Positions 41,959 through 63,283 of a DNA stretch of 64,000 nt are shown in pieces (position 1 is the first letter of the stretch; every line of letters begins with the position of its first letter). Source of the stretch: Streptomyces sp. NBC_01571 (GTDB taxonomy: Bacteria > Actinomycetota > Actinomycetes > Streptomycetales > Streptomycetaceae); assembly GCF_026339875.1 (NCBI RefSeq), contig NZ_JAPEPZ010000004.1, positions 105,799 through 169,798 on the forward strand, in the 5' to 3' direction. Both the position numbers and the translations under genes were made by a program. A model generated the notes under the pieces. The model saw only the letters and a list, made by a program, of their open reading frames with translations. It was not told the origin of the DNA and ran no database searches.

Positions 41959-41986
41959 ATAATAGATGCAAATGAACGGGCGTCAA
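41959..41986 (-). promoter_or_regulatory. Promoter P1 (ssb-dprA-PP-loop-TGT operon)
   Basis: Minus-strand -10 TATTAT (41964-41959), 16-bp spacer, -35 TTGACG (41986-41981). The leftmost of ten copies. The upstream GCAGGTCAGAGG box is mostly replaced by a GC-rich palindrome overlapping the end of the upstream gene. Confidence 0.75.
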
Positions 41987-42942
41987 TCCCGCCCTCCTGA
42001 GGGCGGGCTGGCCTGCCCGACCGTCGGCGCCAGCCCCGCCATGAGGAGCCGCAGGCCTGCGAGCGCCCGGGCGTCCGCTACCTCCTTGGCGTGCTGCGCA
42101 CGGATCTGCGCACGCTCCTTGCGGGCGGTCGACGGCCAGTCGGGCGTGATCAGGACATCCGCACAGCCCACCAGGACGTTCGGGCCCAGATCCCAGGTGA
42201 AGGCGTTGGAGGCACAGCTGGCCGCCGCCAGCGGGTCGACGTCGTTCATCGCCCACTCGAAGGCGTGCACATCGCGCCCGGCCCACGCCGCCTCGGACGC
42301 TGCCGCACGGATCAGCCCGCCCGTGCCGGCCGTGGGTTCGCAGAGCGACCCCGAAGCGAGCGGGTCCCGCCCCAGCGTCAGCCGCGCCAGCAACTCCGCG
42401 ACTTCGGAGGGGGTGTGCTCCTCGGCGTTCGCCTGGCGGGCCCCCTTGCTGCGCAAGGTCGTCAGGACCGCGCCGAGCGGGTCGGCCTCCCGGCGCACCT
42501 GGGCATCCTGGGCGCCGGTCAGCCGCAGTAGCCCGGCATCGAGCGCCGCGTACGTCACCGCGGCCACGGAGCGGGCCTGACGCGGGGAGGGCTGGATCAT
42601 CAGCCACTCGTGCAACGGGGCCGCCCAAGCTGCCAGTTCGGGCTGCTCGATCCAGCGGACCGCCCACACGCGTTCCAGCAGGCGGCACAGCGTCTCCGGG
42701 GCCAGCGCCATGAGCGCCGCACCGGTCCCGGGGGTTTCGGCGAGCTGGGCGAGCGAGGCGACGACTCCTACCGGGACGCGGATTCCGTCCGGCATGTGCT
42801 CCGCGTGCCAGACCCGCGACACGCGCTCCGCCAGGTCCCGGACGTCAACACGCCCACGCTGCGCAGGGGAGGCCACCCGATCCTGTGACGGCCCGCCCGG
42901 ACCGAGGCTCATGGCCGGACTGAAGATACTGATCTGCTGCAC
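41983..42942 (-). CDS. N6-adenine methyltransferase-like protein lacking NPPY
   Basis: 319 residues from a GTG at 42942. The helical N-terminal part (CRLLERVWAVRWIEQPELAAW) resembles HsdM/N6-MTase leaders. LASGSLCEPTAGTGGLIRAAASEAAWAGRDVHAFEWAMNDVDPLAAASCASNAFTWDLG contains the SAM-binding EPTAGTGGL motif and following acidic residue. Where the catalytic NPPF/Y should follow GCADVL, the sequence is ITPDWPSTARKERAQ, and the protein ends soon after. It may bind SAM without methylating, or be a degraded enzyme. It is the only gene between P2 and P1. Confidence 0.65.
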   Translation of the reverse strand: MQQISIFSPAMSLGPGGPSQDRVASPAQRGRVDVRDLAERVSRVWHAEHMPDGIRVPVGVVASLAQLAETPGTGAALMALAPETLCRLLERVWAVRWIEQPELAAWAAPLHEWLMIQPSPRQARSVAAVTYAALDAGLLRLTGAQDAQVRREADPLGAVLTTLRSKGARQANAEEHTPSEVAELLARLTLGRDPLASGSLCEPTAGTGGLIRAAASEAAWAGRDVHAFEWAMNDVDPLAAASCASNAFTWDLGPNVLVGCADVLITPDWPSTARKERAQIRAQHAKEVADARALAGLRLLMAGLAPTVGQASPPSGGRD

Positions 42943-42983
42943 GGGATTCTCGTCTCTGGTGAGGGATGCGGAGCGATAGATTC

Positions 42984-43028
42984 ATAATAGATTCAAACGG
43001 GAGGATGTGAACCCTGCCTCCCACCTGC
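42984..43028 (-). promoter_or_regulatory. Promoter P2
   Basis: Minus-strand -10 TATTAT (42989-42984), 16-bp spacer, -35 TTCACA (43011-43006), upstream box GCAGGTGGGAGG (a variant of the consensus). Drives the methyltransferase-like gene. Confidence 0.8.
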
Positions 43029-43080
43029 GAAAACACCCCAACAGCACCACAGTCAGGGCCGATCGAAGCGGCACGGATGA

Positions 43081-44181
43081 TCAGGCGGTCAGGCCGTACA
43101 GCACGGCCTGACGACTGCGGTACTTGTTGGTCTGCGCGCGCCCGACATGCCCGGCCATCGCCGTACCCGCCGGCGGCCGCGCCGCAGGACCCTCCAGCTC
43201 GTCGAGGACCCGAGCGCGACGGATGATCTCCGCCATCGACAAGCCCTTCTTGAAGCCGGCCCCGACCGTGACCTCCGTCCTCGCATACGCGGCCGCGAGC
43301 TCCGGCACGCGCCGCGCACCGTTCACGAGGTCGTTGTTGCACCCCAGGACACACAACACGCAGCTCAGGCGCCGGTTTCCCCAGTCGTAGGCCGGGTGGT
43401 ACGGCAGACGGGAACGGGCGATCGCGCGCCACACCTTGCGGTCGCTCCACGCGTGCATGGGCCGCCAGGTGGTGATGTGCCGCTTGCCGTTGCTCGCCCC
43501 ACGGTCGATCTCCACGGGGGCGAGCTTCGCCCGCTGGTCGCTCTCGGCGGCACGCTGCCCGATGCACGCCAGGATGCGCACGGGACGCCCCAGATGCGCG
43601 AGTTCGCCGGTGAGCCGCGTGTAGAGGGTCCGGATCGGCCCCCGCTTCACGTCGCTGGTGCACCACCGGGCCGAACTCGACGGCCAGGCCGGAGGCACCT
43701 TCACCTGCGCCGGGTCCTCGCCCGCCTCGCGGGCCTCCTTCTCCGCCTTCGCCTTGAGCTTGCCGTAGCGGATCTCGACGCGGTCGAGGAGATCGGCACC
43801 AGGAGCGCGGACCACCTCGAACCGCCGGACCCCGCACAGGCGCGCCTGGAGCTCGGCGAGTTCGCGGGTACCGTCCCACTCCGCCCGGCCCAGGTCCGCA
43901 TGGACGACGACGACCTTGTCCAGCATCCCCAGGGCCCTCGCCCGCTGGACGACGTAGGAGAGCATCGCCTGACTGTCCTTGCCACCCGAGCTGGAGACGA
44001 CGATCCAGTCGGCGTCCCGGATCAGCTCGTCGGGCACGGTCGTCCGCGGAGCCAACGGAACGGACGCGTGCACCGTCCGCTTCCGCTTCCGCCGCGCCTT
44101 CGGGGCGGCCGGCGCGGCGGTCATGGGTGCGGGCGATTGGGTCGTGAGGGGGGAGAGATCCAACAGAGTGTGGGACTGCAT
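43081..44181 (-). CDS. PAPS-reductase-like PP-loop protein
   Basis: 366 residues from the ATG at 44181 (GAGG upstream). A basic linker precedes WIVVSSSGGKDSQAMLSYVVQRARALGMLDKVVVVHADLGRAEWDGT: a canonical SGGKDS PP-loop and second strand. SSSARWCTSDVKRGPIRTLYTRL is the substrate-side motif of the PAPS-reductase/DndC branch. NRRLSCVLCVLGCNNDLVNGARR has three cysteines. C-terminal helix ends with VGRAQTNKYRSRQAVLYG. DndC relatives help put sulfur into DNA, but no dnd partners are seen, so the substrate is open. Confidence 0.72.
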   Translation of the reverse strand: MQSHTLLDLSPLTTQSPAPMTAAPAAPKARRKRKRTVHASVPLAPRTTVPDELIRDADWIVVSSSGGKDSQAMLSYVVQRARALGMLDKVVVVHADLGRAEWDGTRELAELQARLCGVRRFEVVRAPGADLLDRVEIRYGKLKAKAEKEAREAGEDPAQVKVPPAWPSSSARWCTSDVKRGPIRTLYTRLTGELAHLGRPVRILACIGQRAAESDQRAKLAPVEIDRGASNGKRHITTWRPMHAWSDRKVWRAIARSRLPYHPAYDWGNRRLSCVLCVLGCNNDLVNGARRVPELAAAYARTEVTVGAGFKKGLSMAEIIRRARVLDELEGPAARPPAGTAMAGHVGRAQTNKYRSRQAVLYGLTA

Positions 44182-44364
44182 CGCATGTCCTCGGGCATCT
44201 GGCGGGCTTGGGGGAGGGTGGGGCGGGGCGTGCACGGGGCCGGGCGGCGGTCAGCGGCTCCGGCGGCCGAACCGGTTGCGGGCTGGCTGTCCGCCCGGGG
44301 CTTTGAGCAGTGGGATGCGGGGGAGCGGGGAGTTCGCTCCGTCCGCCCCCGCCGGGGATGCCAG

Positions 44365-44646
44365 TCAGTCGGCTCCGTCGTCGTCCAGGTCCTCCGCCGT
44401 GACGTTGCTGGCGTAGTCGGTCCGTGCGAGGTCGGCCGCGACGTCCCGGAAGCTTCGGCCTCTGGGGGCCGGGCTCGCCAGGACGATCTGGGACACCGAG
44501 TAGGAGAGGACGACCTCTTCGACCTGCGCGCTCACGGCGTAGCCGTTCAGCGGTAGTTCGAAGGATGCGCCGGGAATGACCGGTAGGTCCGGCGGTGGGG
44601 CGTCAAAGCTGATCCGGGTGTGCTCCATGACCAGGGTGACTTTCAC
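44365..44646 (-). CDS. Hypothetical acidic protein
   Basis: 93 residues from a GTG with GAAGGAG five bases upstream. Mixed sequence with an acidic end (TAEDLDDDGAD). No family recognised. In the P3 operon, 183 bp before the PP-loop gene. Confidence 0.5.
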   Translation of the reverse strand: MKVTLVMEHTRISFDAPPPDLPVIPGASFELPLNGYAVSAQVEEVVLSYSVSQIVLASPAPRGRSFRDVAADLARTDYASNVTAEDLDDDGAD

Positions 44647-44776
44647 GTGGACTCCTTCGCTGGGACGGCCGGCGTGCAGGGGACGGCCGGACAGGGATCA
44701 GGGCTGCGCGGCCCGGTCTCGGGTGTTGGCGGGCCTGGCGTCTGCCGGGCTTTGCGCGCGCGGGGCCGGGCGGCGG

Positions 44777-45235
44777 TCAGCGGTACCAGTGGCCGTACTG
44801 GTTGCGCCGGGTCACGTACATCGAGGCGTGTGTCTCGGTGGCCCACGGCGAGGCGGGCAGCTCGTACTGGACGACCGCCCCGAACCGGCACGTGGACACG
44901 ACGGTCGCGGTGGTGGCGCCCACGACGGTGATGCCATCGCCGGGAATCAGCCCCAGGAAGTCCGGGGTCGGCACACTCGCCTCGGATCTCCACCAGGTGC
45001 CCCACGCCTTCGGCTCGCGCGGCGCTGTGGGAAGCGGGGCGAACGCGTCACCGGGCCGGTGGTCGACCAGTTCGGCGGTGCCTTCCTTCGGGCTGTAGAG
45101 GTGCTCGCGGTCGTACGCGGCCGGAACGCTGGAGGCGGGGACTTCCCCCAGCAGGACGGGTGCGCGCCGGCCAGGCCGCGGGGCGGGCGCAGCGGGCGCC
45201 TGAGGAGCGGACAGGTCGAACAGCGCTGTCTGCAC
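44777..45235 (-). CDS. Hypothetical protein
   Basis: 152 residues from the GTG at 45235, seven bases after GGGAGG; the open frame runs on to 45757 as a shadow. A Pro/Ala-rich start is followed by a beta-rich part (GDGITVVGATTATVVSTCRFGAVVQYELP) ending in aromatic NQYGHWYR. Unknown. Confidence 0.55.
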   Translation of the reverse strand: MQTALFDLSAPQAPAAPAPRPGRRAPVLLGEVPASSVPAAYDREHLYSPKEGTAELVDHRPGDAFAPLPTAPREPKAWGTWWRSEASVPTPDFLGLIPGDGITVVGATTATVVSTCRFGAVVQYELPASPWATETHASMYVTRRNQYGHWYR

Positions 45236-45300
45236 AGCAGGCCTCCCTTCGAGTGCGAGTGCGGGGTGCCGGGGCGCGCGGTGCCCCGGCGGAGGTGTGG

Positions 45301-45663
45301 TCAGTCGGAGGGGGCGCTGAGGTACTCGGCGATGAACTCGGCGCACAGGGCCGTCGCGGTCGCCGGGTCGGCCCGCCGCCCGTAGAACACATCGCGCTCG
45401 CTTGTGCCGTTGTCGAAGGTCACGCGCCAGGAACCGCCCCGGTGCTCCATCGGCTGGTCGACGAAGGACGAGGCCTCGTTCGCGTCGTAGACGAAGACGA
45501 CAAGCTTCGGGGTGCCACCGGCGGGGAAGTCGGTGCCGTCCAGGCTGATGACGAGCCAGGACGAACCGGCGTCCTCGTCGATGTGCGCGGTGACGCCCCG
45601 TGGGGCGAGAGCCTGCGTCATCCGCTGAGCTGCGGTCTGCGGGGGGTTGGCGATGGCTGGCAC
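45301..45663 (-). CDS. Hypothetical protein, first gene after P3
   Basis: 120 residues from a GTG with AAAGG upstream. Reads as a compact alpha/beta protein (WLVISLDGTDFPAGGTPKLVVFVYDANEASSFVD, WRVTFDNGTSERDVFYG, TALCAEFIAEYLS). Not recognised. Confidence 0.6.
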   Translation of the reverse strand: MPAIANPPQTAAQRMTQALAPRGVTAHIDEDAGSSWLVISLDGTDFPAGGTPKLVVFVYDANEASSFVDQPMEHRGGSWRVTFDNGTSERDVFYGRRADPATATALCAEFIAEYLSAPSD

Positions 45664-45729
45664 AGGGTGCCTTTCGATTCGGGACGGGGAGTGGAGGCAG
45701 GGGAGGGGGTGCCTCGCTCTTCATCTTCC

Positions 45730-45773
45730 ATAATAGATGGAATTGAAAATGTGACAACCCCCCTCTGACCTGC
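45730..45773 (-). promoter_or_regulatory. Promoter P3
   Basis: Minus-strand -10 TATTAT (45735-45730), 16-bp spacer, -35 TTGTCA (45757-45752), upstream box GCAGGTCAGAGG. GAGGCA (45694-45699) and TGCCTC (45710-45715) can form a hairpin at the transcript start. Confidence 0.85.
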
Positions 45774-45782
45774 GTCCAAGGA

Positions 45783-48841: not shown

Positions 48842-50365
48842 TCAGGCGGCGTCGGGCGCCTTCGGCCGGTGCGCGGAGACGGCCTGCTCCTCGACCTCGG
48901 AGAGGGCGTAGCTGCCGTTGTCGGCCTGCCCGAGCGATTCGAGGAGCAGCAGGTACGCGGCCTGCCGGGCGCTCGGGGCTTCCCAGAGGTAGGAGGCCCG
49001 GTAGCGGACCATGTCGTAGGACTTCGGGTCCTGGATGTCGGCCTCGAACGCGGCGGCGACCTGCGCGAACAGCACGTTCGCGAACTTGGCCTTCGGCAGG
49101 GCGGCGGCCAGTTCCGCCGCCGTGGTCTCCTCGCCTTCCTTGGCCCCCAGGAAGCGGGCCACGTCGGTGCTGTCCCGCTTGCTCGCCCACTTGCCGTAGA
49201 ACTCGGGCAGCTCCAGCAGCACCGTCTGAGCGAAGATGCGGGCCTCTTCGGGCAGGGACTTGCCCTTCACCAGGCGGCTGATGAACTGCTGGCGGGGCCC
49301 GGCTGCGGCCTTCCACGCCCGGTTGCAGGCCACCACCCGCGCGCGCTCGGCCGACTTCTGGGCCGCCTGCTCCGCTTCCTCGGCGCTGAGGCGCGGCTTG
49401 GGCTGCTTGCGGGCCTTGTGGCCGTGGGCTGCCGGGTCGGCGCAATACCAGACGGGCTGGTTGTCCTCGTTCAGGGTGGCGCAGTGGCCGGGGCAGCCGT
49501 GGTGCTTGTCGGCGGTGATCGGGGCCCCGAGCCCGGTGGTGAGGTCGGTCAGTGCCTTGACCGTCTGCTTCTGGTCGTAGGAGAGGTCGGAGGCCAGGGT
49601 GACGCCGGACTTCTTGAGGGCGGTGAAGGCGTCCGCGCGGGCCTTGGTGTTGGCTTTCTCTTCGGTGAGAAGGGCGAACACCTGGTCCCAGTGGCCGCGC
49701 CCGCCCCGGCCCTCTTCCTGGTCCTTCGCGAGAGCCTTGAGGAGCCGCTGTGTGGCGTTGGGGATGCCTTCGACCTCGGTGAGCTGGGCGGTCTGCTCCA
49801 GGTCCATGCCACCGGCCGTGGCCTGCCGCAGCGTCGCGTCATCGAGCCTCTGGGCGGTGCGCAGGTGCTTGACCGCTCCGCGCTTGAGGCCCATCGCCTT
49901 CGCGGCCCTGGCCTGGTCCACCTCGTCCATGCCGACGAGGGACAGTTCCTGGGCCTTGAGGGTGTCGCGGGCGTCCATCTCCTGGCGGTGGTCGTTCTCC
50001 ACCAGGGACAGGAAGCGGGTGTACCCGTCCCTGCCCACCAGGTCGGTACGGACGAACGCCTTGACCGTGCGGACGGGGCGGCCGTCCTGCCCGGCGGTCT
50101 CGTTGGCGATCTGAGCGGCCTGCGCGCGCCGCCAGCCCTTGAACACTCCGTAGGTGCCGTCCGGCAGGGGGCGGACGCTGATGGGCTCCTCGACGCCGAG
50201 TTCCTTGACGGAGGTGATCAGCTTCTGGTCCGGCTCGGTGTCGTGCTCTCGGGCGTTGTGCTCGTCCCGCACGAGCCGGGAGGCGTCCAGCAGTTCGATG
50301 CTCGGGTTGTCCTCTTCCTGCTGCGGGACGGAGGTGTCCGGGGCGGGGGAAAGCGTCGTGCTCAT
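48842..50365 (-). CDS. ParB-like protein with central Cys/His motif
   Basis: 507 residues, ATG at 50365, first gene after P4. ParB N-domain at about 22-120: IELLDASRLVRDEHNAREHDTEPDQKLITSVKELGVEEPISVRPLPDGTYGVFKGWRRAQAAQIA, then a LVENDHRQEMDARD element. Helix-turn-helix about 150-185 (QARAAKAMGLKRGAVKHLRTAQ). A middle segment with HHGCPGHCATLNEDNQPVWYCADPAAHGHKA may bind zinc, unusual for partition ParB. The C-terminal 150 residues are helical and unlike ParB dimerisers. It more resembles the ParB-like proteins of plasmid accessory operons, perhaps a transcription or DNA-binding factor. Confidence 0.75.
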   Translation of the reverse strand: MSTTLSPAPDTSVPQQEEDNPSIELLDASRLVRDEHNAREHDTEPDQKLITSVKELGVEEPISVRPLPDGTYGVFKGWRRAQAAQIANETAGQDGRPVRTVKAFVRTDLVGRDGYTRFLSLVENDHRQEMDARDTLKAQELSLVGMDEVDQARAAKAMGLKRGAVKHLRTAQRLDDATLRQATAGGMDLEQTAQLTEVEGIPNATQRLLKALAKDQEEGRGGRGHWDQVFALLTEEKANTKARADAFTALKKSGVTLASDLSYDQKQTVKALTDLTTGLGAPITADKHHGCPGHCATLNEDNQPVWYCADPAAHGHKARKQPKPRLSAEEAEQAAQKSAERARVVACNRAWKAAAGPRQQFISRLVKGKSLPEEARIFAQTVLLELPEFYGKWASKRDSTDVARFLGAKEGEETTAAELAAALPKAKFANVLFAQVAAAFEADIQDPKSYDMVRYRASYLWEAPSARQAAYLLLLESLGQADNGSYALSEVEEQAVSAHRPKAPDAA

Positions 50366-50435: not shown

Positions 50436-50480
50436 ATAATAGATGGCCTTGGGGATGCGGCTAGCCCCCCTTTGACCTGC
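50436..50480 (-). promoter_or_regulatory. Promoter P4 (ParB-like operon)
   Basis: Minus-strand -10 TATTAT (50441-50436) with the flanking CATCTATTATGG of the series. The hexamer at the -35 spacing is poor (TAGCCG), but the upstream box GCAGGTCAAAGG is well kept, one base farther away. May depend more on an activator than the others. Confidence 0.7.
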
Positions 50481-51116: not shown

Positions 51117-51602
51117 TCAGAGCCTCACGCGGGTGACCTCGCGGGTGGGCAGGTGGACCCGCAGCACGTCCTCGTGGCCGGGCTCGTCCATGGAAGCGAG
51201 CCGGGTCAGCGCACGTGACAGCTGTGGATCGGCGAACATCGCATCCGCCAGCTCCGCCTCCTCCACTGGCACGCAGACGACCTGCGTGCTGGTGTGGCGC
51301 AGATCCGGTATCTCCTCGGTGCTCGCGAGGGCCGCGACGAACGGGCTCCAGGTGAGGCCCTCTGTCGCCCGGCGTTCCGTCGGTGTGAAGTACGCGGTCA
51401 TCGGCGCGGGGCCGTCCCCTTCCTGCTCGGCCACGAACGCAGCGACCCGGTCAACCACGATTTGCCGCAGCGCGTCCTCCGCCGCCGCGAGTCCCTCGAT
51501 GACCAGCGCCTCCACTTGATCCAGGGGAAGGCTGCGGATCGCTTCGCGCAGCAGGGGGCTTGTCGGCTTGGACAGTAGCGCTGCCAGTTCCACAGGCGTC
51601 AT
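51117..51602 (-). CDS. Hypothetical protein, first gene after P5
   Basis: 161 residues from the ATG at 51602. Helical N-terminus (VELAALLSKPTSPLLREAIRSLPLDQVEALVIEGLAAAEDALRQIVVDRVAAFVAEQ), then a beta-rich part. Not recognised. Confidence 0.6.
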   Translation of the reverse strand: MTPVELAALLSKPTSPLLREAIRSLPLDQVEALVIEGLAAAEDALRQIVVDRVAAFVAEQEGDGPAPMTAYFTPTERRATEGLTWSPFVAALASTEEIPDLRHTSTQVVCVPVEEAELADAMFADPQLSRALTRLASMDEPGHEDVLRVHLPTREVTRVRL

Positions 51603-51658: not shown

Positions 51659-51702
51659 ATAATAGATGCTTCCTGTGTGGTGTGAACCCCCTCCTGACCT
51701 GC
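51659..51702 (-). promoter_or_regulatory. Promoter P5
   Basis: Minus-strand -10 TATTAT (51664-51659), 16-bp spacer, -35 TTCACA (51686-51681), upstream box GCAGGTCAGGAGG (one base longer). Confidence 0.85.
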
Positions 51703-51747
51703 ACCTTTGCCGTTGCTGACGCGATCCTCATCCTGAGACGGCGGTCC

Positions 51748-55008: not shown

Positions 55009-55353
55009 TCAGATGACGGCGATGGTGGGGTCTGCTTCCAGCACGCCGAGGGCAGCGCGGACGGCGGCACGGGTCTCGTCGCTGGGGCGGGAGTAGGGGA
55101 ACTTCAAGGCGCGCACGGCGGCGTCGAGTTCGTCGTCGCTCAGCCCGTCGAGCCGCTTGTCGCTGCGGTAGAGGGCAAGGGCCGTGGCGGTGGCCACGCG
55201 GCCCCGGTTGTAGGTGACGGCCTGATCCTTCGTGAGGTCGGGGCCGAAAGCGTCTCGGGCCGTGGGCGGCATGGGGGGCGCGCCCGTGGGAAGCGGGCGG
55301 GCGGTCAAGCGGATCAGGGGAGGGATGAGGATGCGCAGCAGCGATTCCAGCAC
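55009..55353 (-). CDS. Hypothetical protein, first gene after P6
   Basis: 114 residues from the GTG at 55353 (AGGAGA upstream). An amphipathic N-terminus (LESLLRILIPPLIRLTARPL) is followed by FGPDLTKDQAVTYNRGRVATATALALYRSDKRLDGLSDDELDAAVRALKFPYSRPSDETRAAVRAAL, a helical domain. Not recognised. Confidence 0.58.
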   Translation of the reverse strand: MLESLLRILIPPLIRLTARPLPTGAPPMPPTARDAFGPDLTKDQAVTYNRGRVATATALALYRSDKRLDGLSDDELDAAVRALKFPYSRPSDETRAAVRAALGVLEADPTIAVI

Positions 55354-55411: not shown

Positions 55412-55455
55412 ATAATAGATGGATCTGGATAGGTGTGAACCCCCCTCTGAACTGC
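55412..55455 (-). promoter_or_regulatory. Promoter P6
   Basis: Minus-strand -10 TATTAT (55417-55412), 16-bp spacer, -35 TTCACA (55439-55434), upstream box GCAGTTCAGAGG. GGGCCGC (55376-55382) and GCGGCCC (55391-55397) form a 7-bp hairpin near the transcript start. Confidence 0.88.
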
Positions 55456-55495
55456 GACGTCTAGCCCCCTGCACGCCGCTGGGCGGGCGCGCTGC

Positions 55496-55847: not shown

Positions 55848-56153
55848 CTACGTGCGGCGGTACAGGACCTTCCTGCGGGCGCGGCGGGCTGCGGTGGTAC
55901 GCCGTTCGCGCTGCCGTTTCAGGTCCTGGCTGATCTGCTCGCCCGTCTCCGCCGCCTCGCGTCGTGCGGCCTCCTCGGCGCTGGCCGCGTAGACGATCTC
56001 GACGCTGCCGCCTTCGTCGCGGGAGTCCCGGCGGATCTCCTCGCAGGCGTCGTCCGGCTCTTCCGGTTTCTCGGGTGCTGCTTGGACCTGCCAGACCGTG
56101 AGGTCGGGTCCGGGCCGCTGTCCGATGACGAAGAAGGAGCGTCCGTCGGGCAC
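55848..56153 (-). CDS. Hypothetical charged protein, first gene after P7
   Basis: 101 residues. The GTG at 56153 has an excellent AGGAGGACGCA before it; the upstream GTG at 56174 has a poor site. RSFFVIGQRPGPDLTVWQVQAAPEKPEEPDDACEEIRRDSRDEGGSVEIVYAASAEEAARREAAETGEQISQDLKRQRERRTTAARRARRK: a beta hairpin and then a long charged helix, perhaps nucleic-acid binding. Confidence 0.58.
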   Translation of the reverse strand: MPDGRSFFVIGQRPGPDLTVWQVQAAPEKPEEPDDACEEIRRDSRDEGGSVEIVYAASAEEAARREAAETGEQISQDLKRQRERRTTAARRARRKVLYRRT

Positions 56154-56204
56154 TGCGTCCTCCTGGTCGCGCACGGCGCGGTCTTGGCGGGATGTCGGGT
56201 TCCG

Positions 56205-56256
56205 GTGCGAGAGGGGGCGGGGGAGGGGGGTGGCAGCCGCCGCCCCCCTCTCGCAC
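56205..56256 (-). ncRNA. 5'-leader hairpin of the P7 transcript
   Basis: GTGCGAGAGGGGG (56205-56217) and CCCCCTCTCGCAC (56244-56256) form a perfect 13-bp stem ending 6 bp from the P7 -10, so the RNA would begin with it. The same arms occur after P8. A structured leader, not a separate RNA gene. Confidence 0.65.
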
Positions 56257-56261
56257 TATCC

Positions 56262-56305
56262 ATAATAGATTAATCAGAGTGGGTGTAAGCCCGCCCTTGA
56301 CCTGC
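56262..56305 (-). promoter_or_regulatory. Promoter P7
   Basis: Minus-strand -10 TATTAT (56267-56262), 16-bp spacer, -35 CTTACA (56289-56284), upstream box GCAGGTCAAGGG. Confidence 0.85.
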
Positions 56306-56334
56306 GCGCACCCTTCCCGCAGCGCCGGTTACCC

Positions 56335-57039
56335 CTACCGGAACTTGGGGCCGAGATCGGCGACCAGCACGGAGGCGTTGTCGGCGTAGCTCGCTCCGAG
56401 CAGGGCGGCGCCTACGAACGTCCTGGAGGCGTCCCTGGGGTTCCCCCTCAGGTAGTGCTCGAAGTTGCGGCCGGAGTCCTCCAGGGGCTCGTACGCGCCG
56501 TCACTGGCGAGCAGCAGGCGGTAGGAGTCCGCGGGGGCGGTGGCGGACTCGATCGCCGCGTGATTGTACTGCTGCCTGCGCTCGTCGTCGGACTCGGTGG
56601 CTCCCAGGTAGGACGTCACCACGTTGCGACTGCGGTTGAAGACGCGTCGCATGTTGTGGTCGGCGGTGAGGCGCTGGATGCCGCCGGGGGTGAGGGTGTA
56701 GGCGCGGACGTCGCCGCACCATGCGACGGTGAGCGGCTCGCCGGGAACGGCGACGGCGACGGCCGCGCACGCCTTAGGCAGGTCCGCGAACGGACTCTTG
56801 CGCTCGGGCTCGGCGGCGTACCGGTCGTACTCGGCGCGCAGGCCGGCGTCCGCGCCGCCGCTCCGCGCGGCGGCCCGGGCGATACGGCGGGCGGCGGTGC
56901 GGGTCCACGCCTGGACCTCGTCGCTGGAGCCGATCCCGTCGCACAGCACGTACGCACGGATCCCGTCGTGGGTGTGGGTGGCGGTGGCGTCGCACTGGTG
57001 TGAACGGTCGCCGATCAGCTGCGCGGACGCGTGGGCCAT
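56335..57039 (-). CDS. PP2C-type protein phosphatase
   Basis: 234 residues from the ATG at 57039 (AGGAGAG upstream). PPM/PP2C core elements: RAYVLCDGIGSSDEVQAWT (metal-binding DGIG, usually DGMG), LTVAWCGDVRAYTLTPGGIQRLTADHNM (GDVRAY, usually GDSRAY), YRLLLASDGAYEPLED and YADNASVLVADLG (DN metal ligand). About the size of a minimal PPM domain. It would dephosphorylate serine/threonine, antagonising a kinase not seen here. Second gene of the P8 operon. Confidence 0.82.
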   Translation of the reverse strand: MAHASAQLIGDRSHQCDATATHTHDGIRAYVLCDGIGSSDEVQAWTRTAARRIARAAARSGGADAGLRAEYDRYAAEPERKSPFADLPKACAAVAVAVPGEPLTVAWCGDVRAYTLTPGGIQRLTADHNMRRVFNRSRNVVTSYLGATESDDERRQQYNHAAIESATAPADSYRLLLASDGAYEPLEDSGRNFEHYLRGNPRDASRTFVGAALLGASYADNASVLVADLGPKFR

Positions 57040-57145: not shown

Positions 57146-58348
57146 TCACGCGACGGCGAGCAGCGCGCCCCCGTCCGTCTCCCACGCTGCGACCGTCGCC
57201 GGGTCGGGCACGGCGGTGCGGGGCTCGGCAGGACTGGCAGGCTCGACCTGCACGCGCGATATGACGTCGCCGGGCCGGTAGGACCACTCACCCGCGACCC
57301 GGTACCCGAACCGGGAGATCAGGTCGGCGACCCGGTCCAGGGGGATGGCCTCGAAGCTGAGGTAGTGGCAACCGTCCTCGTCCCAGACCGTGAAACGCTC
57401 CCACGGCCTTCCGCGGTGCGGCTGCAAGCATCCGCACTCCAGCCGCAGTCCGGCCCCGTCCATGCGGCTGAACGACAGGATGGCGGAGGTGGCAGTCATG
57501 GTGCAGGTCAGTGACCGCTCCCACATCTCATACGCGCCGTCGAACACCCCGAGCGTCAATATCTCGGACGCGATGACCCAGCGGGCGAACTCGGCCCCCT
57601 CCGCCGGGGTGCTCCCCTGACTCACCGCGTAGGCCGTGAGGTCCTCAAGGTGGGCGGCGTTGGACGTGAGGTAGTTCTCGGGCAGTACCGACAGGATCGG
57701 TTCGCTGCCGGGGGCCACTTGGTCGCCCTCGGTGACCAGCAGGCAGTCCGCACCGACGTAGTTGCGCCCGACGAACGTCGACGGGTACAGGGTCACGGGG
57801 CAGGCGGCTTTGGTCCACTGGCTCAGCAGCACGGGAGTGGTTCCGGCCGGAGTGGCAGCGATGGACGCTGAGACGGTCTCGGAGGTGACCGGCGACGCGT
57901 CCCGGTGCCGGTGGACCGTGAGGTCCGGCGCCTGGGCGGCCTTCTCCTTGGCAGCGGCCAGGTGGGCACGCGCCGTGGCGGCGGCGGTTTCCGGGTCGGC
58001 GACCAGGACACGCAGGACACCCCACGCGATGCCCTGAACGGCCCTCTGGCCGTTGCACGTCATCGTGGCACCTGCCCAGCGGTAGCCGCGGGCGCTGGCC
58101 TTCCAGGCGCAGCGAAGAGCGATCCGTCCCGCGCCCGTGCGGACGGTGAGCAGCAGGGCGTTGAAACCGGGCTGCGTCTCGACGGTGGCGGTCCAACCGG
58201 TCGCCTCGGCCCGGGGGATGAGGCGGGCGAGATTGCGCGGCATCGCCGCCGCTGCGCCCTCCTCCGCCGTCTGCTTCGGGGCGGGGCTGGCTGCGGCGGG
58301 AGCGGTGGCGGCGTGCTGGGCGCTGGCGGGTGCCGTCGTGGTGTCCAT
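57146..58348 (-). CDS. Hypothetical protein, first gene after P8
   Basis: 400 residues from the ATG at 58348 (CAGGAGACAGGA upstream). Ala/Pro-rich start, then MPRNLARLIPRAEATGWTATVETQPGFNALLLTVRTGAGRIALRCAWKASARGYRWAGATMTCNGQRAV, a middle with GADCLLVTEGDQVAPGSEPILSVLPENYLTSNAAHLEDLTAYAVSQGS, and GDVISRVQVEPASPAE near the end. No family recognised; the front third may be a small alpha/beta DNA- or RNA-binding fold. Confidence 0.6.
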   Translation of the reverse strand: MDTTTAPASAQHAATAPAAASPAPKQTAEEGAAAAMPRNLARLIPRAEATGWTATVETQPGFNALLLTVRTGAGRIALRCAWKASARGYRWAGATMTCNGQRAVQGIAWGVLRVLVADPETAAATARAHLAAAKEKAAQAPDLTVHRHRDASPVTSETVSASIAATPAGTTPVLLSQWTKAACPVTLYPSTFVGRNYVGADCLLVTEGDQVAPGSEPILSVLPENYLTSNAAHLEDLTAYAVSQGSTPAEGAEFARWVIASEILTLGVFDGAYEMWERSLTCTMTATSAILSFSRMDGAGLRLECGCLQPHRGRPWERFTVWDEDGCHYLSFEAIPLDRVADLISRFGYRVAGEWSYRPGDVISRVQVEPASPAEPRTAVPDPATVAAWETDGGALLAVA

Positions 58349-58529
58349 GCGGTCCTGTCTCCTGCTCGCTCGGTGGGTGCTGCGGAGGGGTGCTCTGCCG
58401 TCCCGCGCCCGCAGAAGGGGGGTGCGGGCGCCGGACGGCAGTCGTCGGCCAGTGGCGGGCTGGCCGGGTTGGCCGCGTGCGCACTCGGGGGTGCGACGTG
58501 CGGCAGGGGCGGGGAGGCGGTCCGCCCGG

Positions 58530-58573
58530 GTGCGAGAGGGGGCGGTGCGGGGGGACATCACCCCCTCTCGCAC
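58530..58573 (-). ncRNA. 5'-leader hairpin of the P8 transcript
   Basis: GTGCGAGAGGGGG (58530-58542) and CCCCCTCTCGCAC (58561-58573): same 13-base arms as the P7 leader, again ending 6 bp from the -10. Loop differs in length and sequence, so the stem itself seems conserved. Confidence 0.65.
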
Positions 58574-58578
58574 TATCT

Positions 58579-58622
58579 ATAATAGATGAATTGGGGAGGG
58601 TGTAAACCCCTCTCTGACCTGC
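58579..58622 (-). promoter_or_regulatory. Promoter P8
   Basis: Minus-strand -10 TATTAT (58584-58579), 16-bp spacer, -35 TTTACA (58606-58601), upstream box GCAGGTCAGAGA. Confidence 0.88.
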
Positions 58623-58652
58623 TCACTTACGGGCATCCGCCCTGCGCTGTGG

Positions 58653-59009: not shown

Positions 59010-59374
59010 GTGGTCTCCATCCGTCCGGTGGCGCGCCGGATGCTGCCGGCGCTGTCTGGGAAGCGGCTTCCGCCTGGGCGCGGTTGCGGGCGAGCTGGTG
59101 CTCGCCGGCGCACGCCGTGCGGGGCTCGCCCCGCACGGCCCGGCTCGCTGGGCGGGCCGCACGGGGGCGGGCGGGGTCAGTAGCTGCGCATGGCTGCTCC
59201 TCGATGCGGTGACGGTGGCAGTGGTGCGATGGATGGTTGGGGTCTCCCCGCGCCCGACGAAGGGGAGAGGCGGGCGCGGGGAGACTCGGGGGCGGCCAGT
59301 GGCGTGCTGGCCCTGGGGCCGTGCGCCTTCCTCTCAGGGGGAGGTCGGGGAAGGCGCACGGTGCTGGTGGGCGG
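59010..59374. other. Gap with terminator-like hairpin
   Basis: No convincing gene in 365 bp. GCCGTGCGGGG (59114-59124), loop CTCG, CCCCGCACGGC (59129-59139) is a perfect 11-bp stem, likely a terminator or attenuator before the 118-residue gene. A four-codon frame (MRSY) with GAGGAGCAGCC before its ATG lies at 59177-59191 and may be a leader. Confidence 0.45.
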
Positions 59375-60097
59375 CTACGCCTGCGGGACGTGGGTCCAGC
59401 AGGTATGGCCGGTGCCGTCGGCCCGCGAGCGGGGCCACAGGCGGGACAGATCGTGTTCGGATGCCGGGTAGGCGCATTCACCGCACGGCGGGCCCCAGTC
59501 GGCGGGCTCGTCGGCCACCTCGGCGGTGTAGATCTCCGGGGTGCTCCAGGGGAAGCCTCCGGGGTCGAACCGGACGGAGGTGTCCGGCATGAGGTGGGCC
59601 CACCCTGCGGGCCACCCCACAACGGGTTTGCGGCGGCATCGCGCGATGGCGTCGCGCACGGCGCTGCCTCGCCATAGCTGGCTGACGCCGGATGGCCCGG
59701 TGACGCGGTAGGCGGGCGCGGTGACTTGCTCGTCCGGCCGGTTGATCAGGACCCCGGATGCCCGGTCGGGGGTGAAGGTGGCGCTGGAGTGGTTGCGGGT
59801 CTGGCGGTAGCGGATGACTCCGTCTTCCGTCATGGTCGCTTCGCTCAACCGCCAGAAGTTGAGGTTGCCGCGTAGGAACCGGTCCAGTCCCTCGCCGTTG
59901 GTCCAGCGGCCGAACTCCGCGGTGCGGGCCGGGTAGTCGCCTGCACGGCCCGCGTGCTGCTCGTAGCGGGCGTGGATGTCGGCGGCGTTCATGTGGAGGT
60001 AGGGGCCTTCGATCCCCCAGTCAGGGATGCGGTAGGCGATGATCCGCGTTCCGGGGAGCGGCTGGCGGGCCGGGACGTCGGCGGGTACATCCGTCAT
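59375..60097 (-). CDS. Hypothetical protein
   Basis: 240 residues from the ATG at 60097, overlapping the upstream stop as ATGA. RIIAYRIPDWGIEGPYLHMNAADIHARYEQHAGRAGDYPARTAEFGRWTNGEGLDRFLRGNLNFWRLSEATMTEDGVIRYRQTRNHSSATFTPDRASGVLINRP; C-terminal PPCGECAYPASEHDLSRLWPRSRADGTGHTCWTH has two Cys pairs with His. Not recognised. Confidence 0.58.
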   Translation of the reverse strand: MTDVPADVPARQPLPGTRIIAYRIPDWGIEGPYLHMNAADIHARYEQHAGRAGDYPARTAEFGRWTNGEGLDRFLRGNLNFWRLSEATMTEDGVIRYRQTRNHSSATFTPDRASGVLINRPDEQVTAPAYRVTGPSGVSQLWRGSAVRDAIARCRRKPVVGWPAGWAHLMPDTSVRFDPGGFPWSTPEIYTAEVADEPADWGPPCGECAYPASEHDLSRLWPRSRADGTGHTCWTHVPQA

Positions 60098-60315
60098 CGG
60101 GCACCGTCCACGGGCGGGGGCTGGTGATGGATCAGAATCCCGTTGAGGCTCACCCTGAGCCCGGACTGTCCGCACGGGCAGGCGGCCGTGTAGCGGTTTG
60201 TAGTCCGCGGTGTCCACCTTCCCAGGTCGTCCCACTTGTTCTTGCGGAGACTGCCGGGGGCCGGGGCCCGGTTGGTGCAGTAACCGTCGTCTGCGACGGG
60301 CGGGATGTCAGCCAC
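60094..60315 (-). CDS. Small hypothetical protein, 73 residues
   Basis: GTG at 60315 with GAGGAGAG upstream, overlapping the previous gene by 8 bp. CTNRAPAPGSLRKNKWDDLGRWTPRTTNRYTAACPCGQSGLRVSLNGILIHHQPPP; basic, with a CxC and an HH pair. Coupled to the next gene through ATGA. Confidence 0.55.
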   Translation of the reverse strand: MADIPPVADDGYCTNRAPAPGSLRKNKWDDLGRWTPRTTNRYTAACPCGQSGLRVSLNGILIHHQPPPVDGAR

Positions 60316-60796
60316 GGGTGCTCTCCTCATCCATGCCGGTCGGCTCCGGGAGGGTGGGGGCGGTGTAGACGTCGCGGTCCTCGGCTTCGGTGCCGGGGCA
60401 GGGGATGAGGGCGACTTCGAGGGATGCGGTGTCCATGGGGTGCAGCCACCCGTCCCGGACGACCCACCCGCAGACGCGCGGGCACGGCTCGGTGATCGTG
60501 GTGGCTATGAGGGTCGCGCCGGTGACGGTGCTGCCTTCCAGCGCGAACACGAGATACACGGCGAGCGTGTAGTAGTCGTCATCGCCGAGAATGCCGCTGA
60601 GCTGGACGTCCGCACCAGGCGGGAACTCGACGCCGTGACACAGGGGGAGGTCGTCGGTCCGCAGCAACGCGATATCGAGCGTGTGTTCACCGGGCCCGAG
60701 TGCGTGGAACACGGCGGCCAGCACGGACAAAGTGCGCTCCATGGCGGCGTTCAGGGCGGCATCGTCCGGGCGGATGATTCCGGGGTGCGCGGGCAT
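60308..60796 (-). CDS. Hypothetical protein
   Basis: 162 residues, ATG at 60796 with AAGGAG upstream. Acidic: ALNAAMERTLSVLAAVFHALGPGEHTLDIALLRTDDLPLCHGVEFPPGADVQLSGILGDDDYYTLAVYLVFALEGSTVTGATLIATTITEP. Not recognised. Confidence 0.55.
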   Translation of the reverse strand: MPAHPGIIRPDDAALNAAMERTLSVLAAVFHALGPGEHTLDIALLRTDDLPLCHGVEFPPGADVQLSGILGDDDYYTLAVYLVFALEGSTVTGATLIATTITEPCPRVCGWVVRDGWLHPMDTASLEVALIPCPGTEAEDRDVYTAPTLPEPTGMDEESTRG

Positions 60797-61022
60797 GGGG
60801 GATCGCTCCTTGGCGAGAGGTGAGCAACAAAAGGCCGGCGGGGAGGGCGGTGGGGCGGTGGGCGGTACAGCGCGCGCCGCGCCCGGTCACCGCAAGAGGC
60901 TTCTTAGGCGCGCGGTCTGCTCCGCAGCCGCGGTGCGCTGCCGCTACGCGGCAGGGGGCCAGGGGCCGGCGCGCTCCGCGCTCCGTCGGGAGGCGGCGCG
61001 CGCCGCGCTTGGGCGGCGGGGG

Positions 61023-61063
61023 CCCGTGCGGGCCGGGTGTCGGGGGCACCCGGCCCGCACGGG
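61023..61063. terminator. 17-bp perfect hairpin after the DUF932 gene
   Basis: CCCGTGCGGGCCGGGTG (61023-61039), 7-base loop, CACCCGGCCCGCACGGG (61047-61063). It lies 12 bp past the DUF932 stop, as expected for a strong terminator or attenuator. The remainder of 60797-61074 is GC-rich with short CGCGC repeats and no gene. Confidence 0.75.
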
Positions 61064-61074
61064 GTTCGTGCCGC

Positions 61075-62079
61075 CTAGACCGTGGTGAGGGTGAAAGCCT
61101 TCTCCATCAGGTCATCGGCGGTGCCGGTGATGATGCGCTCGGCGCGGGCGCGGCGCTTGTCGGCGTCGGTCTTGCCCCGGGTCGGCGCCTCGTGGTTCAC
61201 GTACTCCGTGAGCGCGTTGTATCCGGCCCACCGGGTGCCCCGGATTCCGGCCTGGGTGTCGGCCTGCTCGAACAGGTAGCTGATCTGTCCCCATCGGCGC
61301 TCGGTGTTGGTGCGCTTCGGCTTGCTGTCGTTCGGGGCCACGGGCCAGATGGCGTCGACGACGGTCCGGAGTTCCGCGAGCGTCATCTCAGCCTCGACCA
61401 TGCGCTGTGCGGCCTTCTCGAACTCCTCGGCGTACTTGAACGTGAGGCCGAGCGCGGTACGGGCCTGCGCAATGCGGGCCTTTGCTCCGGCCGTGTGCCG
61501 CACGGTGAAGCTGGAGCGGGCGCACGCGATGGCGGCGCGCTGGGTGTTGGCGCACACCACCCGGATCGGCGTGGTGACGATACGGAACGCGGCCGATCCG
61601 TCGTGGCTGTTGAACGCCGCAATGTACAGGTCCGTCGCGTCCGTCCCGTTGATGACCATGGATTGCGGCATCTTCATGGTCAGGAACACCTGACGGCCGT
61701 TCTTGAGCGATCCCGCCGTCTCGAAGTGCGCGCCGGACTCGTCGGCGAGCAAGTTGAGGAACTCGGCGTGTTCCTCGTTCTGAACGGGGTGGTAGTCGCT
61801 GCCCACAACCCCCAGGGTCTCCGTGCGGTGGGTCTTGGGGTTGGTGCGGACCGACGCGTAGTGGTCGGCCACCTCCACGCGAGAGGCGCCGTCCTCGGTG
61901 ATCTCCGTTGCTCCCAGCTCCAGGAGACGCACGTTCCAGTCAGCCAGATAGGCCTTCTCCATGGCCTCTTCGGCGGTGAGGGCCCCGGCCGTCACGGTCC
62001 CGAGTCCGTGCCACGCGCTCTCGCGGGCGGACACGAACGCTGCGGTGCCGTCGTTGAACTTCTCGATCATGTGTGCCAT
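61075..62079 (-). CDS. DUF932 plasmid/phage protein
   Basis: 334 residues from the ATG at 62079 (AAGGGGAAC upstream), first gene after P9. Typical DUF932 start: MIEKFNDGTAAFVSARESAWHGLGTVTAG followed by LTAEEAMEKAYLADWNVRLL. Later VGSDYHPVQNEEHAEFLNLLADESGAHFETAGSLKNGRQVFLTMKMPQ and RIVTTPIRVVCANTQRAAIACA are also family features, as is TRWAGYNALTEYVNHEAPTRGKTDADKRRARAERI near the end. DUF932 proteins are carried by plasmids and phages; the biochemical role is unknown. Confidence 0.85.
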   Translation of the reverse strand: MAHMIEKFNDGTAAFVSARESAWHGLGTVTAGALTAEEAMEKAYLADWNVRLLELGATEITEDGASRVEVADHYASVRTNPKTHRTETLGVVGSDYHPVQNEEHAEFLNLLADESGAHFETAGSLKNGRQVFLTMKMPQSMVINGTDATDLYIAAFNSHDGSAAFRIVTTPIRVVCANTQRAAIACARSSFTVRHTAGAKARIAQARTALGLTFKYAEEFEKAAQRMVEAEMTLAELRTVVDAIWPVAPNDSKPKRTNTERRWGQISYLFEQADTQAGIRGTRWAGYNALTEYVNHEAPTRGKTDADKRRARAERIITGTADDLMEKAFTLTTV

Positions 62080-62115
62080 CGCTGCGGTTCCCCTTCGTTG
62101 CTGTTGCTTGGGATT

Positions 62116-62140
62116 CGGGGGGCGGGGCCACCGCCCCCCG
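62116..62140 (-). ncRNA. 5'-leader hairpin of the P9 transcript
   Basis: CGGGGGGCGG (62116-62125), loop GGCCA, CCGCCCCCCG (62131-62140): perfect 10-bp stem ending 10 bp from the P9 -10. Confidence 0.6.
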
Positions 62141-62149
62141 ACACCACTG

Positions 62150-62194
62150 ATAATAGATGCTTCTTGGTTGCTGTGAACCCTGCCTCTGACCTGC
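62150..62194 (-). promoter_or_regulatory. Promoter P9
   Basis: Minus-strand -10 TATTAT (62155-62150), 16-bp spacer, -35 TTCACA (62177-62172), upstream box GCAGGTCAGAGG (exact consensus). Confidence 0.9.
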
Positions 62195-62196
62195 GG

Positions 62197-62742
62197 CTAT
62201 GAGTGCGGGTGGAACTCCGAGTAGGCGGTTACGCTCTGATGCCTGACCCTCGTGACTGCCGGAACGGCTGCGCCGTCCAACTCCCTGCCCAAGTCGTACC
62301 GGACTTCGGCGGGGTAGCCAATCCGGCTGCGAGTGATGTGCATACCCACCACCCAGTAGTCACCGTGCAAGTGACTGAGGCTGCCGTGATAGCTGACCCT
62401 CTGCCACAGGGCGGGGCTGTTCTGCGGCAGACGGCGCGCGGTCTCCAGCGCCAACCTGTCCGATACGGCTTCGGCCATAAGCTCCGTGAAGGCTGCCGTG
62501 ACGGTGCCGCTGTCGACGGGTACGCCGTACAGCGCCGGACCCGTGACCCCGGTCCGTACACCCATCGCCCAACCCAGCAGAAAGAAGGGTCGGATGAGTT
62601 CGAAGCGCCGCGCGGGCACCCGGTACGACTGACCGTCTCGGCGGCTCCGTACCAACTCCTTGAGCGCGTGAACCGCTGCGTCCAACTCCTGATCGGAAAG
62701 AGGCGCGCTCTCCGTTGACTGCCCTACTTGGGTCTCGTCCAT
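62197..62742 (-). CDS. Hypothetical protein
   Basis: 181 residues, ATG at 62742 with GGGAGAG upstream. SDQELDAAVHALKELVRSRRDGQSYRVPARRFELIRPFFLLGWAMGVRTGV, WQRVSYHGSLSHLHGDYWVVGMHITRSRIGYPAEVRYDLGRELDG. Not recognised. Second gene after P10. GC content and codon use look slightly lower than in the neighbours. Confidence 0.58.
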   Translation of the reverse strand: MDETQVGQSTESAPLSDQELDAAVHALKELVRSRRDGQSYRVPARRFELIRPFFLLGWAMGVRTGVTGPALYGVPVDSGTVTAAFTELMAEAVSDRLALETARRLPQNSPALWQRVSYHGSLSHLHGDYWVVGMHITRSRIGYPAEVRYDLGRELDGAAVPAVTRVRHQSVTAYSEFHPHS

Positions 62743-62821
62743 TTCCGCTCTCCCTGTCGTGAATTCCTGTGTGTTCGGGGACCGGGGCGCCCGATGGCGG
62801 GCGCCCCGGTGGGTGCGGCGA

Positions 62822-63193
62822 CTATCCGAGGAATCCGCGAGTCCGAAGGTATTCGTACGTGTTGAGCGCGATACCGCTCGGGTTGTAGAGCTGGGGAATC
62901 TGGTGAATCACCTTGCCGGTCTTCCCGCTCTTGTCCGGCTCGTCGTACTCGTGAACCAAACGGTACGAGCCACCGGCCCGGGGGATTTCCAGAACGACCG
63001 GTCCCGCCTTCGTGTTGAAGCGAATCCCGGTGTAAAGGGAATCCTGGTTGTGGACGATGTCCGCCCCGATCCGCTGGCAGGCAAGAGGCAGCAGATTTGC
63101 AATGGTGCGGGCCTGGATGGCAATGGGCGTCATGGGGGCATCAATTCCGCCGTGGAGGCGCGAGACCTTGCCGCCCTCGATCTTGATTTCCAC
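62822..63193 (-). CDS. Hypothetical protein, first gene after P10
   Basis: 123 residues from the GTG at 63193 with AAGGGGAAACA upstream; the frame extends to 63379 through the promoter. EIKIEGGKVSRLHGGIDAPMTPIAIQARTIANLLPLACQRIGADIVHNQDSLYTGIRFNTKAGPVVLEIPRAGGSYRLVHEYDEPDKSGKTGKVIHQIPQLYNPSGIALNTYEYLRTRGFLG: a beta-rich single domain. Not recognised. Confidence 0.6.
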   Translation of the reverse strand: MEIKIEGGKVSRLHGGIDAPMTPIAIQARTIANLLPLACQRIGADIVHNQDSLYTGIRFNTKAGPVVLEIPRAGGSYRLVHEYDEPDKSGKTGKVIHQIPQLYNPSGIALNTYEYLRTRGFLG

Positions 63194-63255
63194 TGTTTCC
63201 CCTTCGTTGTCCTGCTTGGTGACGGTGCCGGGGCTCGCCTTGCCCCGACTCCTTA

Positions 63256-63283
63256 ATAATAGATGCTTAGGCGTGTGATTGGA
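63256..63283 (-). promoter_or_regulatory. Promoter P10
   Basis: Minus-strand -10 TATTAT (63261-63256) with the flanking ATCTATTATTA. The hexamer at the -35 spacing is weak (TCCAAT) and the upstream box is not kept. CGGGGC (63229-63234) and GCCCCG (63242-63247) form a leader hairpin. Confidence 0.65.

Follow-up and report, generated by a model that had tools for sequence, protein, structure and literature searches.

In a 64,000-nucleotide stretch of Streptomyces sp. NBC_01571 (the right end of contig NZ_JAPEPZ010000004.1; hereafter the window), ten copies of a promoter-like module precede the genes of a block that very probably abuts the telomere of a linear plasmid, with all ten elements pointing inward. 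By sequence comparison with related replicons, the upstream half of the promoter tracks the gene, and about six bases on each side of the -10 element track the plasmid; such a division is expected if a plasmid-specific factor reads a shared core. We propose a telomere-proximal establishment regulon that is controlled by a repressor and fired on entry, with this end of the plasmid entering first, and give this reading, taken as a whole, an even chance of being right. Its direct basis is the repetition, position, orientation, gene content and conservation of the elements, and the plasmid-specific bases flanking the -10. An earlier note, made from the letters of the window, had described one promoter module repeated ten times as a plasmid regulon; the telomeric, inward-directed, plasmid-specific version of the block and the gene-bound and plasmid-bound parts of the promoter are new here.

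The 9-mer ATAATAGAT, which reads ATCTATTAT on the minus strand, was found at ten sites in the window (41959, 42984, 45730, 50436, 51659, 55412, 56262, 58579, 62150 and 63256), compared to none expected from 100 shuffles of the window. These are the ten leftward sites of the earlier note, all in place, and in the genome of 11,539,061 bases ATCTATTAT occurred exactly ten times, always in this block and on one strand, with no match to the backwards pattern. Over the 36 kb at the right of the window, TATTAT itself was present ten times on the minus strand and never on the plus strand, each time as one of the ten and preceded by ATC. Alignment of the ten sites gave a module of about 45 bases, composed of GCAGGTCAnAGGnGGGTTCACACC, about 10 variable bases, ATCTATTAT and a purine-rich, GGA-like stretch; a longer upstream box conserved among the modules, GCAGGTCAnAGG, is absent from the earlier note. 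At 16-bp spacing the -35 was TTCACA in four sites (42984, 51659, 55412 and 62150), TTTACA at 58579, CTTACA at 56262, TTGACG at 41959 and TTGTCA at 45730, and the outliers were 50436 (TAGCCG, or CTAGCC at 17 bp) and 63256 (TCCAAT, or TTCCAA at 17 bp); "TTCACA or close to it in most" was therefore a fair description. All ten sites were intergenic relative to 30 mapped genes, the next minus-strand gene starting 20-230 bases on, in agreement with the claim that every copy lies just upstream of such a gene.

A weight matrix was derived from the ten sites themselves, which inflates their own scores, and on the 169,798-base contig it gave them 41.2-70.6 bits against 4.7 bits for the best unrelated match; the runners-up, at 10.7, 10.2, 9.5 and 5.7 bits, came from three of the ten sites read on the plus strand. 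The remaining genome was scanned by patterns. Equally good matches, which the earlier note had named as a point to check, were thus found neither elsewhere on the contig by matrix nor elsewhere in the genome for the 9-mer, and none of the ten sites lay within a mapped gene. A strict consensus search of the genome allowing three mismatches returned no matches and missed the ten sites too, presumably because every site differs from the consensus at more than three positions. An Rfam scan of the window gave no match. The modules, numbered inward from the plasmid end, are as follows.

63256..63300 (-10 at 63256-63261), minus strand: module 1, first-gene subclass, before orf1; a similar upstream part stands before orf1 in some other plasmids.
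62150..62194 (-10 at 62150-62155, -35 TTCACA at 62172-62177), minus strand: module 2, before the DUF932 gene.
58579..58623, minus strand: module 3, -35 TTTACA, before a gene for 400 amino acids (57149-58348).
56262..56306, minus strand: module 4, -35 CTTACA, before gene 55860-56153.
55412..55456, minus strand: module 5, -35 TTCACA, before a gene for 87 amino acids (55012-55272).
51659..51703, minus strand: module 6, -35 TTCACA, before gene 51120-51602.
50436..50480, minus strand: module 7, ParB subclass, CTAGCC in place of TTCACA.
45730..45774, minus strand: module 8, -35 TTGTCA, before gene 45307-45663.
42984..43028, minus strand: module 9, -35 TTCACA, before gene 42223-42795.
41959..42003, minus strand: module 10, -35 TTGACG, without the GCAGGTCA box, before the gene for a single-stranded DNA-binding protein (SSB), and named the SSB subclass.

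The -35 exceptions at SSB, ParB and the first gene are seen again before these genes in some of the other plasmids, so these modules look like promoter subclasses, at least three in all. In many plasmids the three subclasses lack the shared upstream part or have it in altered form, and share the -10 and its flanks. A -35 of TTGAC was seen at the SSB promoters in 7 of 13 cases, and the CTAGCC of module 7 was the same in L012 and L019 and similar in L047 and L052 but not in L008, L016 and L018 (L numbers denote the loci compared). The sequence supports a single regulon on a plasmid, as had been suggested; the idea that one switch governs the whole block is too simple in view of the subclasses.

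The window reaches the right-hand terminus of the 169,798-base contig, and its last base aligned with base 1 of NZ_CP109471, a near-identical linear sister plasmid of 509,926 bases from Streptomyces sp. NBC_01462, with 97.5% identity over 87% of window positions 39010-64000. The ten elements therefore point inward from what is very probably a telomere:

63770..64000: telomere-like end with tandem short palindromes (by eye), meeting base 1 of NZ_CP109471.

Tandem short palindromes are described for telomeres in a survey (PMC8743542). NZ_CP109471 also holds ten TATTAT modules, nine of them in its terminal 21 kb and the tenth at 41.5 kb, directly before SSB-DprA and preceded by about 20 kb of other genes that include tyrosine recombinases and an ISL3 transposase. 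Its gene table is incomplete, but all 28 of the genes that it gives for the first 21.8 kb are directed inward and map to the minus strand of the window. The earlier estimate of about 35 genes proved about right, with 32 annotated genes of NZ_CP109471 mapping to window 37.8-63.2 kb.

A related block and module were present at the ends of twelve named linear plasmids (L007-L014 and L016-L019), which had been chosen for a match to the block or to its DUF932 gene. Two further replicons picked for DUF932, from S. goshikiensis (L015) and pFRL6 (L020), contained no TATTAT in the stretches examined, and DUF932 alone is therefore no predictor of the module. When 392 genomes of the genus were scanned for GGGTTCACA-N15-CTATTAT with at most one mismatch, 25 places in 8 genomes were found (including five places in the window's own genome), with no matches to the reversed control. 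An exact-pattern scan of one genome per species across 84,980 species gave 39 stretches, 21 of them in Streptomyces; the other 18 were single matches outside Streptomyces, at 32-58% GC, and were taken as chance. In two genomes (G159 and G300) the relaxed pattern lay at both ends of contigs of 9.6 and 8.9 Mb, respectively, directed inward; the gene order of the block was largely kept in the G300 ends, and few of the genes were found in G159. Modules at both ends of chromosome-sized contigs (L046, L047, L054 and L055) suggest that plasmid ends have been exchanged onto chromosomes.

Across 19 stretches at the ends of plasmids, chromosomes and draft contigs, counted after exclusion of the redundant ends L007, L017, L054 and L055, TATTAT had 89 copies on the inward strand and a single one on the opposite strand, where 0.10-0.43 per strand per stretch were expected. 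For 79 of the 89 the inward direction follows from the position of the end; the 10 on draft contigs L051-L053 were oriented by the modules themselves, and the sole opposite-strand copy overlapped a module. Because TATTAT had served as the anchor in this count, we also anchored on the upstream box: all 30 matches were on the same strand, 25 with TATTAT, four with CATTAT, TAATAT or TAGTAT, and one with an unrelated hexamer. No TATTAT was found in 15 kb at the far ends of NZ_CP109471, NZ_CP109216, NZ_CP109119 and NZ_CP108988. More distant linear plasmids (L056-L058) carry other repeated inward modules amid a similar gene set, namely TAGAAT with a conserved downstream part in S. globisporus and NBC_01422, and GCG-TATTAT-TGATT in NBC_01455. 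Terminal sequences differ between the plasmids, which led us to abandon the idea of the module as a marker for a single type of telomere.

The bases around the -10 differed from plasmid to plasmid. The context is ATC-TATTAT-GGA in the plasmid of the window, and the commonest forms elsewhere, to which there are exceptions, were TTCCAC-TATTAT-GGTTC (NBC_01187 and NBC_01795), TTCCAC-TATTAT-TGAAG (NBC_00212), GCAC-TATTAT-TT (right end of NBC_00080, and NBC_00015), ACAC-TATTAT (NBC_00723, G300 and G123) and GG-TATTAT-GGAAC (S. althioticus, S. anthocyanicus, SYP-A7193 and NBC_01766), where the -35 part also differs and reads TTGCCCCACC. For the 89 sites in 18 groups, identity over the six bases before the -10 was 0.688 within and 0.409 between plasmids, and over the six bases after it 0.504 and 0.353, values reached in 0 of 2000 permutations in either case. 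There was no clear effect in the first 10 spacer bases (0.392 within, 0.376 between; 190 of 2000) or in the 14 bases past the downstream flank (169 of 2000). The result was replicated with 45 sites in 13 further groups, two of them single-site, after exclusion of six loci of four genomes already used and with one row that reads a site a second time, in overlap with the first: permutations reached the observed value in 0 of 2000 for the bases before the -10, 19 for those after it and 1031 for the next 14 bases, and the -35 stretch (1845 of 2000) showed no plasmid-specific likeness.

The upstream half of the promoter behaved differently. Over 38 sites before SSB, ParB and orf1, later reduced to 27 by removal of the S. 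althioticus group and NBC_01766 (L008-L011), we compared raw identities, without a significance test and with few same-plasmid pairs. In both sets the upstream half was more alike at the same gene in other plasmids (0.524 for the 27 sites, 110 pairs) than at other genes in the same plasmid (0.368, 18 pairs), and the six bases before the -10 gave the reverse (0.517 vs 0.750, 27 sites). These values bear on the idea that the sites resemble each other through recent copying of a promoter within each plasmid. Sites are indeed alike within plasmids, but this likeness extends little or not at all to the spacer and to the bases past the flank, and the upstream half follows the gene, and we consider recent copying hardly credible. 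Sites bound by a partition or telomere protein, of the parS or iteron kind and with no promoter function, would account for the ParB-like gene in the block and for the near-palindromic -10 region seen by eye at some sites; against this, each window site stands directly before a gene, on one strand and with -10/-35 spacing, and the helix-turn-helix of ParB is nearly unchanged where the flanks differ, which makes such sites a very improbable explanation. Ordinary constitutive plasmid promoters without shared regulation would fit a core resembling housekeeping promoters, as judged from the general consensus. The ATC before TATTAT at all ten sites here and the plasmid-specific flanks elsewhere nevertheless suggest a selective reader, and we regard constitutive promoters as improbable.

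In the mechanism that we propose, for a linear plasmid that also has T4SS-like transfer genes, ten sigma-70-type promoters with TATTAT as the -10, about 16 bp of spacer and, mostly, the upstream GCAGGTCAnAGGnGGGTTCACA part would point inward from the plasmid end. They would drive about 30 genes that serve the plasmid when it arrives in a new cell, including those for SSB, DprA, the ParB-like protein and DUF932. A plasmid-encoded factor, most likely a repressor that is present in the donor and absent from the recipient, would recognise the surroundings of the -10, so that each module would be a housekeeping-type promoter overlapped by the operator of a plasmid-specific repressor. The promoters would be quiet in the donor and, on entry, all fire together and briefly. 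We infer the promoter nature of the modules and the repressor nature of the factor.

The same regulon could instead be under positive control, with an activator or a plasmid-dependent sigma factor reading the -10 region and turning the genes on in some growth or donor state, and not through loss of repression at entry. A sigma factor would be expected to contact the bases flanking the -10, the -35 often departs from the TTGACA consensus, and NZ_CP109216 has, near its other end, a gene annotated as "sigma factor-like helix-turn-helix". However, the flanks change with TATTAT and its spacing unaltered, the SSB promoters have the TTGAC -35 noted above, and none of the 76 Sigma70_r2 matches in the genome fell on the contig, which may be incomplete; positive switching of this kind thus appears unlikely, though far from negligible. 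The last result also speaks against a plasmid sigma factor as the reader, and other candidates were set aside as well. The ParB-like protein is disfavoured because its helix-turn-helix is nearly identical in this plasmid, NBC_00080 and NBC_00015, where the flanks are ATC-TATTAT-GGA in the first and GCAC-TATTAT-TT in the others. A helix-turn-helix gene at 37461-37811 was present in 4 of 72,556 plasmid records, one being the sister plasmid. Among ten proteins scanned from the small opposite-strand genes at the inner border of the block, a DNA-binding family was found only in this one. The product of orf1, considered as a DNA-binding regulator, gave a good structural model (mean pLDDT, the predicted local distance difference test score, of 82.8), for which neither PDB nor BFVD contained a similar fold at an E value of 0.001 or better. 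The gene itself was found in 14 of the 72,556 records, in all 14 at 0.73-1.28 kb from the record end and directed inward.

Single-stranded DNA promoters of the Frpo or ssi type, which fold on the incoming strand, would also fire on entry, and some gene classes and the one-strand layout are as in Frpo-controlled leading regions (PMC11541004). We folded the ten sites on both strands at two sizes; z was -2 or below in 9 of the 40 folds, which came from five sites. At most four of the six -10 bases were paired in the 40 folds, though, and none paired at least five bases in both boxes; the strongest z (at 58579, about -7, in the wide window only) stems from a leader hairpin, and the conserved part of about 45 bases has no evident partner strand. 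We see next to no prospect that the modules are of this type. The leaders after two modules (58480-58578 and 56170-56261) contain GTGCGAGAGGGGG and can form long GC hairpins, and L014 and L019 have leaders of a similar kind, with GCGAGAGGGGG; a role as attenuator or 5' stabiliser is possible.

The recognised genes of the block and of the region further in are listed below; the majority of block genes have no recognised family.

62825..63193, minus strand: orf1, telomere-adjacent, about 123 amino acids.
61078..62079, minus strand: DUF932 / TIGR03299 "phage/plasmid-like" protein.
56338..57039, minus strand: PP2C-like phosphatase.
48845..50365, minus strand: ParB-like protein with ParB_N and a probable helix-turn-helix.
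43084..44181, minus strand: PAPS-reductase/DndC/BrxP-like protein.
41435..41938, minus strand: SSB.
40531..41364, minus strand: DprA-family protein.
30785..33147, minus strand: Mom-family protein and C5 DNA methylase in overlapping open frames with starts not fixed, inward beyond the modules.
22425..25166, minus strand: AAA_10 ATPase, VirB4-like by inference, probable transfer gene.
18950..21130, minus strand: SLT/NlpC-P60 protein, probable transfer gene.

SSB and DNA methylases are typical gene classes of leading regions, as are anti-defence genes, for which there are candidates here. With regard to a phage early regulon, a PHROG scan of 10 of the approximately 32 block proteins gave five matches (ParB, a weak methylase, SSB and unknown function), none of them structural. 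Two kinds of DNA modification, of the Mom family and by a C5 methylase, adjoin each other on this probably conjugative plasmid, and an open frame of 1087 amino acids beside them (33370-36633) matched no family in Pfam, NCBIfam and PADLOC scans.

The suggestion in the earlier note that the genes are of an entry type is supported for the recognised part, that is, SSB and the methylases, and by a circular relative. In the Pimelobacter plasmid pA-N39, genes for ParB_N and DUF932 on one strand and for SSB and DprA on the other are found within roughly 3 to 9 kb of the gene for a MobF relaxase; DUF932 alone was compared by sequence (52.6% identity), the other genes being assigned by annotation. The contig of the window contained no TrwC or PF03432 relaxase, and a Replic_Relax protein is encoded at 14822-15724. 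An "end-first" model exists for the transfer of linear Streptomyces replicons. According to the telomere survey, the putative helicase gene ttrA, needed for conjugation of SLP2, is often telomeric and directed inward, an orientation that its authors suggest matters (PMC8743542). The other end of NZ_CP109471 encodes an inward DEAD-box/Helicase-associated protein (L099:11867-14353), TtrA-like by domain content only. The ttrA precedent, the inward helicase on the sister plasmid and the circular relative make telomere-first entry of these plasmids plausible, and the precedent of the Bacillus plasmid p576 (PMC8708921) makes it likely, by analogy, that the block is switched on when the plasmid arrives in a new host. 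It is in this sense that we infer firing on entry and the entry of this end first. If DNA enters telomere end first, a plasmid would keep its establishment regulon there. More tentatively, and with the expectation that it is more probably wrong than right, we suggest a fuller version in which the telomere would be the counterpart of the origin of transfer (oriT), each lineage would have a private version of the bases around the -10 for its own repressor, with plasmid-specific immunity and synchronous zygotic induction as the result, and the regulon would move with the ends onto chromosomes.

Several results weigh against the establishment regulon as proposed. No reader was found among ParB, the local helix-turn-helix gene, plasmid sigma factors and orf1. 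The upstream and -35 stretches were also somewhat plasmid-specific among the 89 sites (9, 0 and 5 of 2000 permutations), with a smaller effect, the spacer was borderline in the replication (75 of 2000), the flank pattern was weak in some plasmids (L048 and L052/L053), and the gene-against-plasmid comparison consists of raw identities. NBC_00080 (L012/L104, NZ_CP108236) has the same 3,428 bases at its two ends, followed at each by a different block with slightly different flanks, so that the flank is tied to the block and not strictly to the plasmid. The module was also present at the far ends of two of the six replicons examined (NZ_CP108583 and NZ_CP108236), and a DUF932 gene near a plasmid end is not always accompanied by it (L015); DUF932 is nowhere named in the leading-region paper (PMC11541004). 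Regarding end-first entry, MOB-suite reports MOBP relaxases on NZ_CP109471 and NZ_CP109216, which makes an internal oriT a possibility.

How linear Streptomyces replicons are transferred between cells is an old open question, and a block that lies near a relaxase in a circular relative and at the telomere here allows a direct test of which end enters first. The plasmid-specific flank of the -10 predicts a family of repressors or other readers with changing specificity, and the approximately 30 mostly unnamed genes per plasmid are candidates for establishment or anti-defence functions. A telomeric regulon of this kind was not described in the open-licence literature searched (titles and the starts of abstracts).

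Among known systems, the KorA/KorB regulon of IncP plasmids joins many promoters under one operator and a ParB-like regulator. Many promoter-like elements and a ParB-like gene are found here as well, but ParB is not likely to read the flanks. The ttrA gene, which is tied to conjugation, resembles the block in lying beside a telomere and being directed inward (PMC8743542), but is a single helicase gene, whereas the block has many promoters. Frpo leading regions (Samuel et al. 2024; PMC11541004) enter early and, like the present block, group genes for SSB, methylases and putative anti-defence proteins on a single strand; they lie beside oriT, unlike the present block beside a telomere, for which folding of single-stranded promoters was unsupported. 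EGeRS1 of pLS20 consists of multicopy upstream sequences that mostly cluster by plasmid, as do those described here, but the EGeRS1 copies are 420-750 bp long with many inverted repeats and no recognisable sigma-A promoter (PMC8708921), compared to a module of about 45 bases with a -10 and a -35 here. In EGeRS2 of p576, from the same paper, several establishment operons have the same strong promoter, which acts transiently on entry since the repressor is missing in the recipient (PMC8708921). That repressor, of the ribbon-helix-helix type, acts on paired TTATCCC upstream of the -35, whereas the plasmid-specific bases here flank the -10; no paired TTATCCC was present in the 89 sites (a single TTATCCC lay in the spacer of one L048 site), and no autoregulated repressor gene was recognised in the regulon, ParB and the helix-turn-helix gene at 37461-37811 being disfavoured. 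Although p576 is a Bacillus plasmid and the replicon described here is linear and actinobacterial, both have one element repeated before several operons, a strong sigma-A promoter in p576 and promoter-like by its sequence here.

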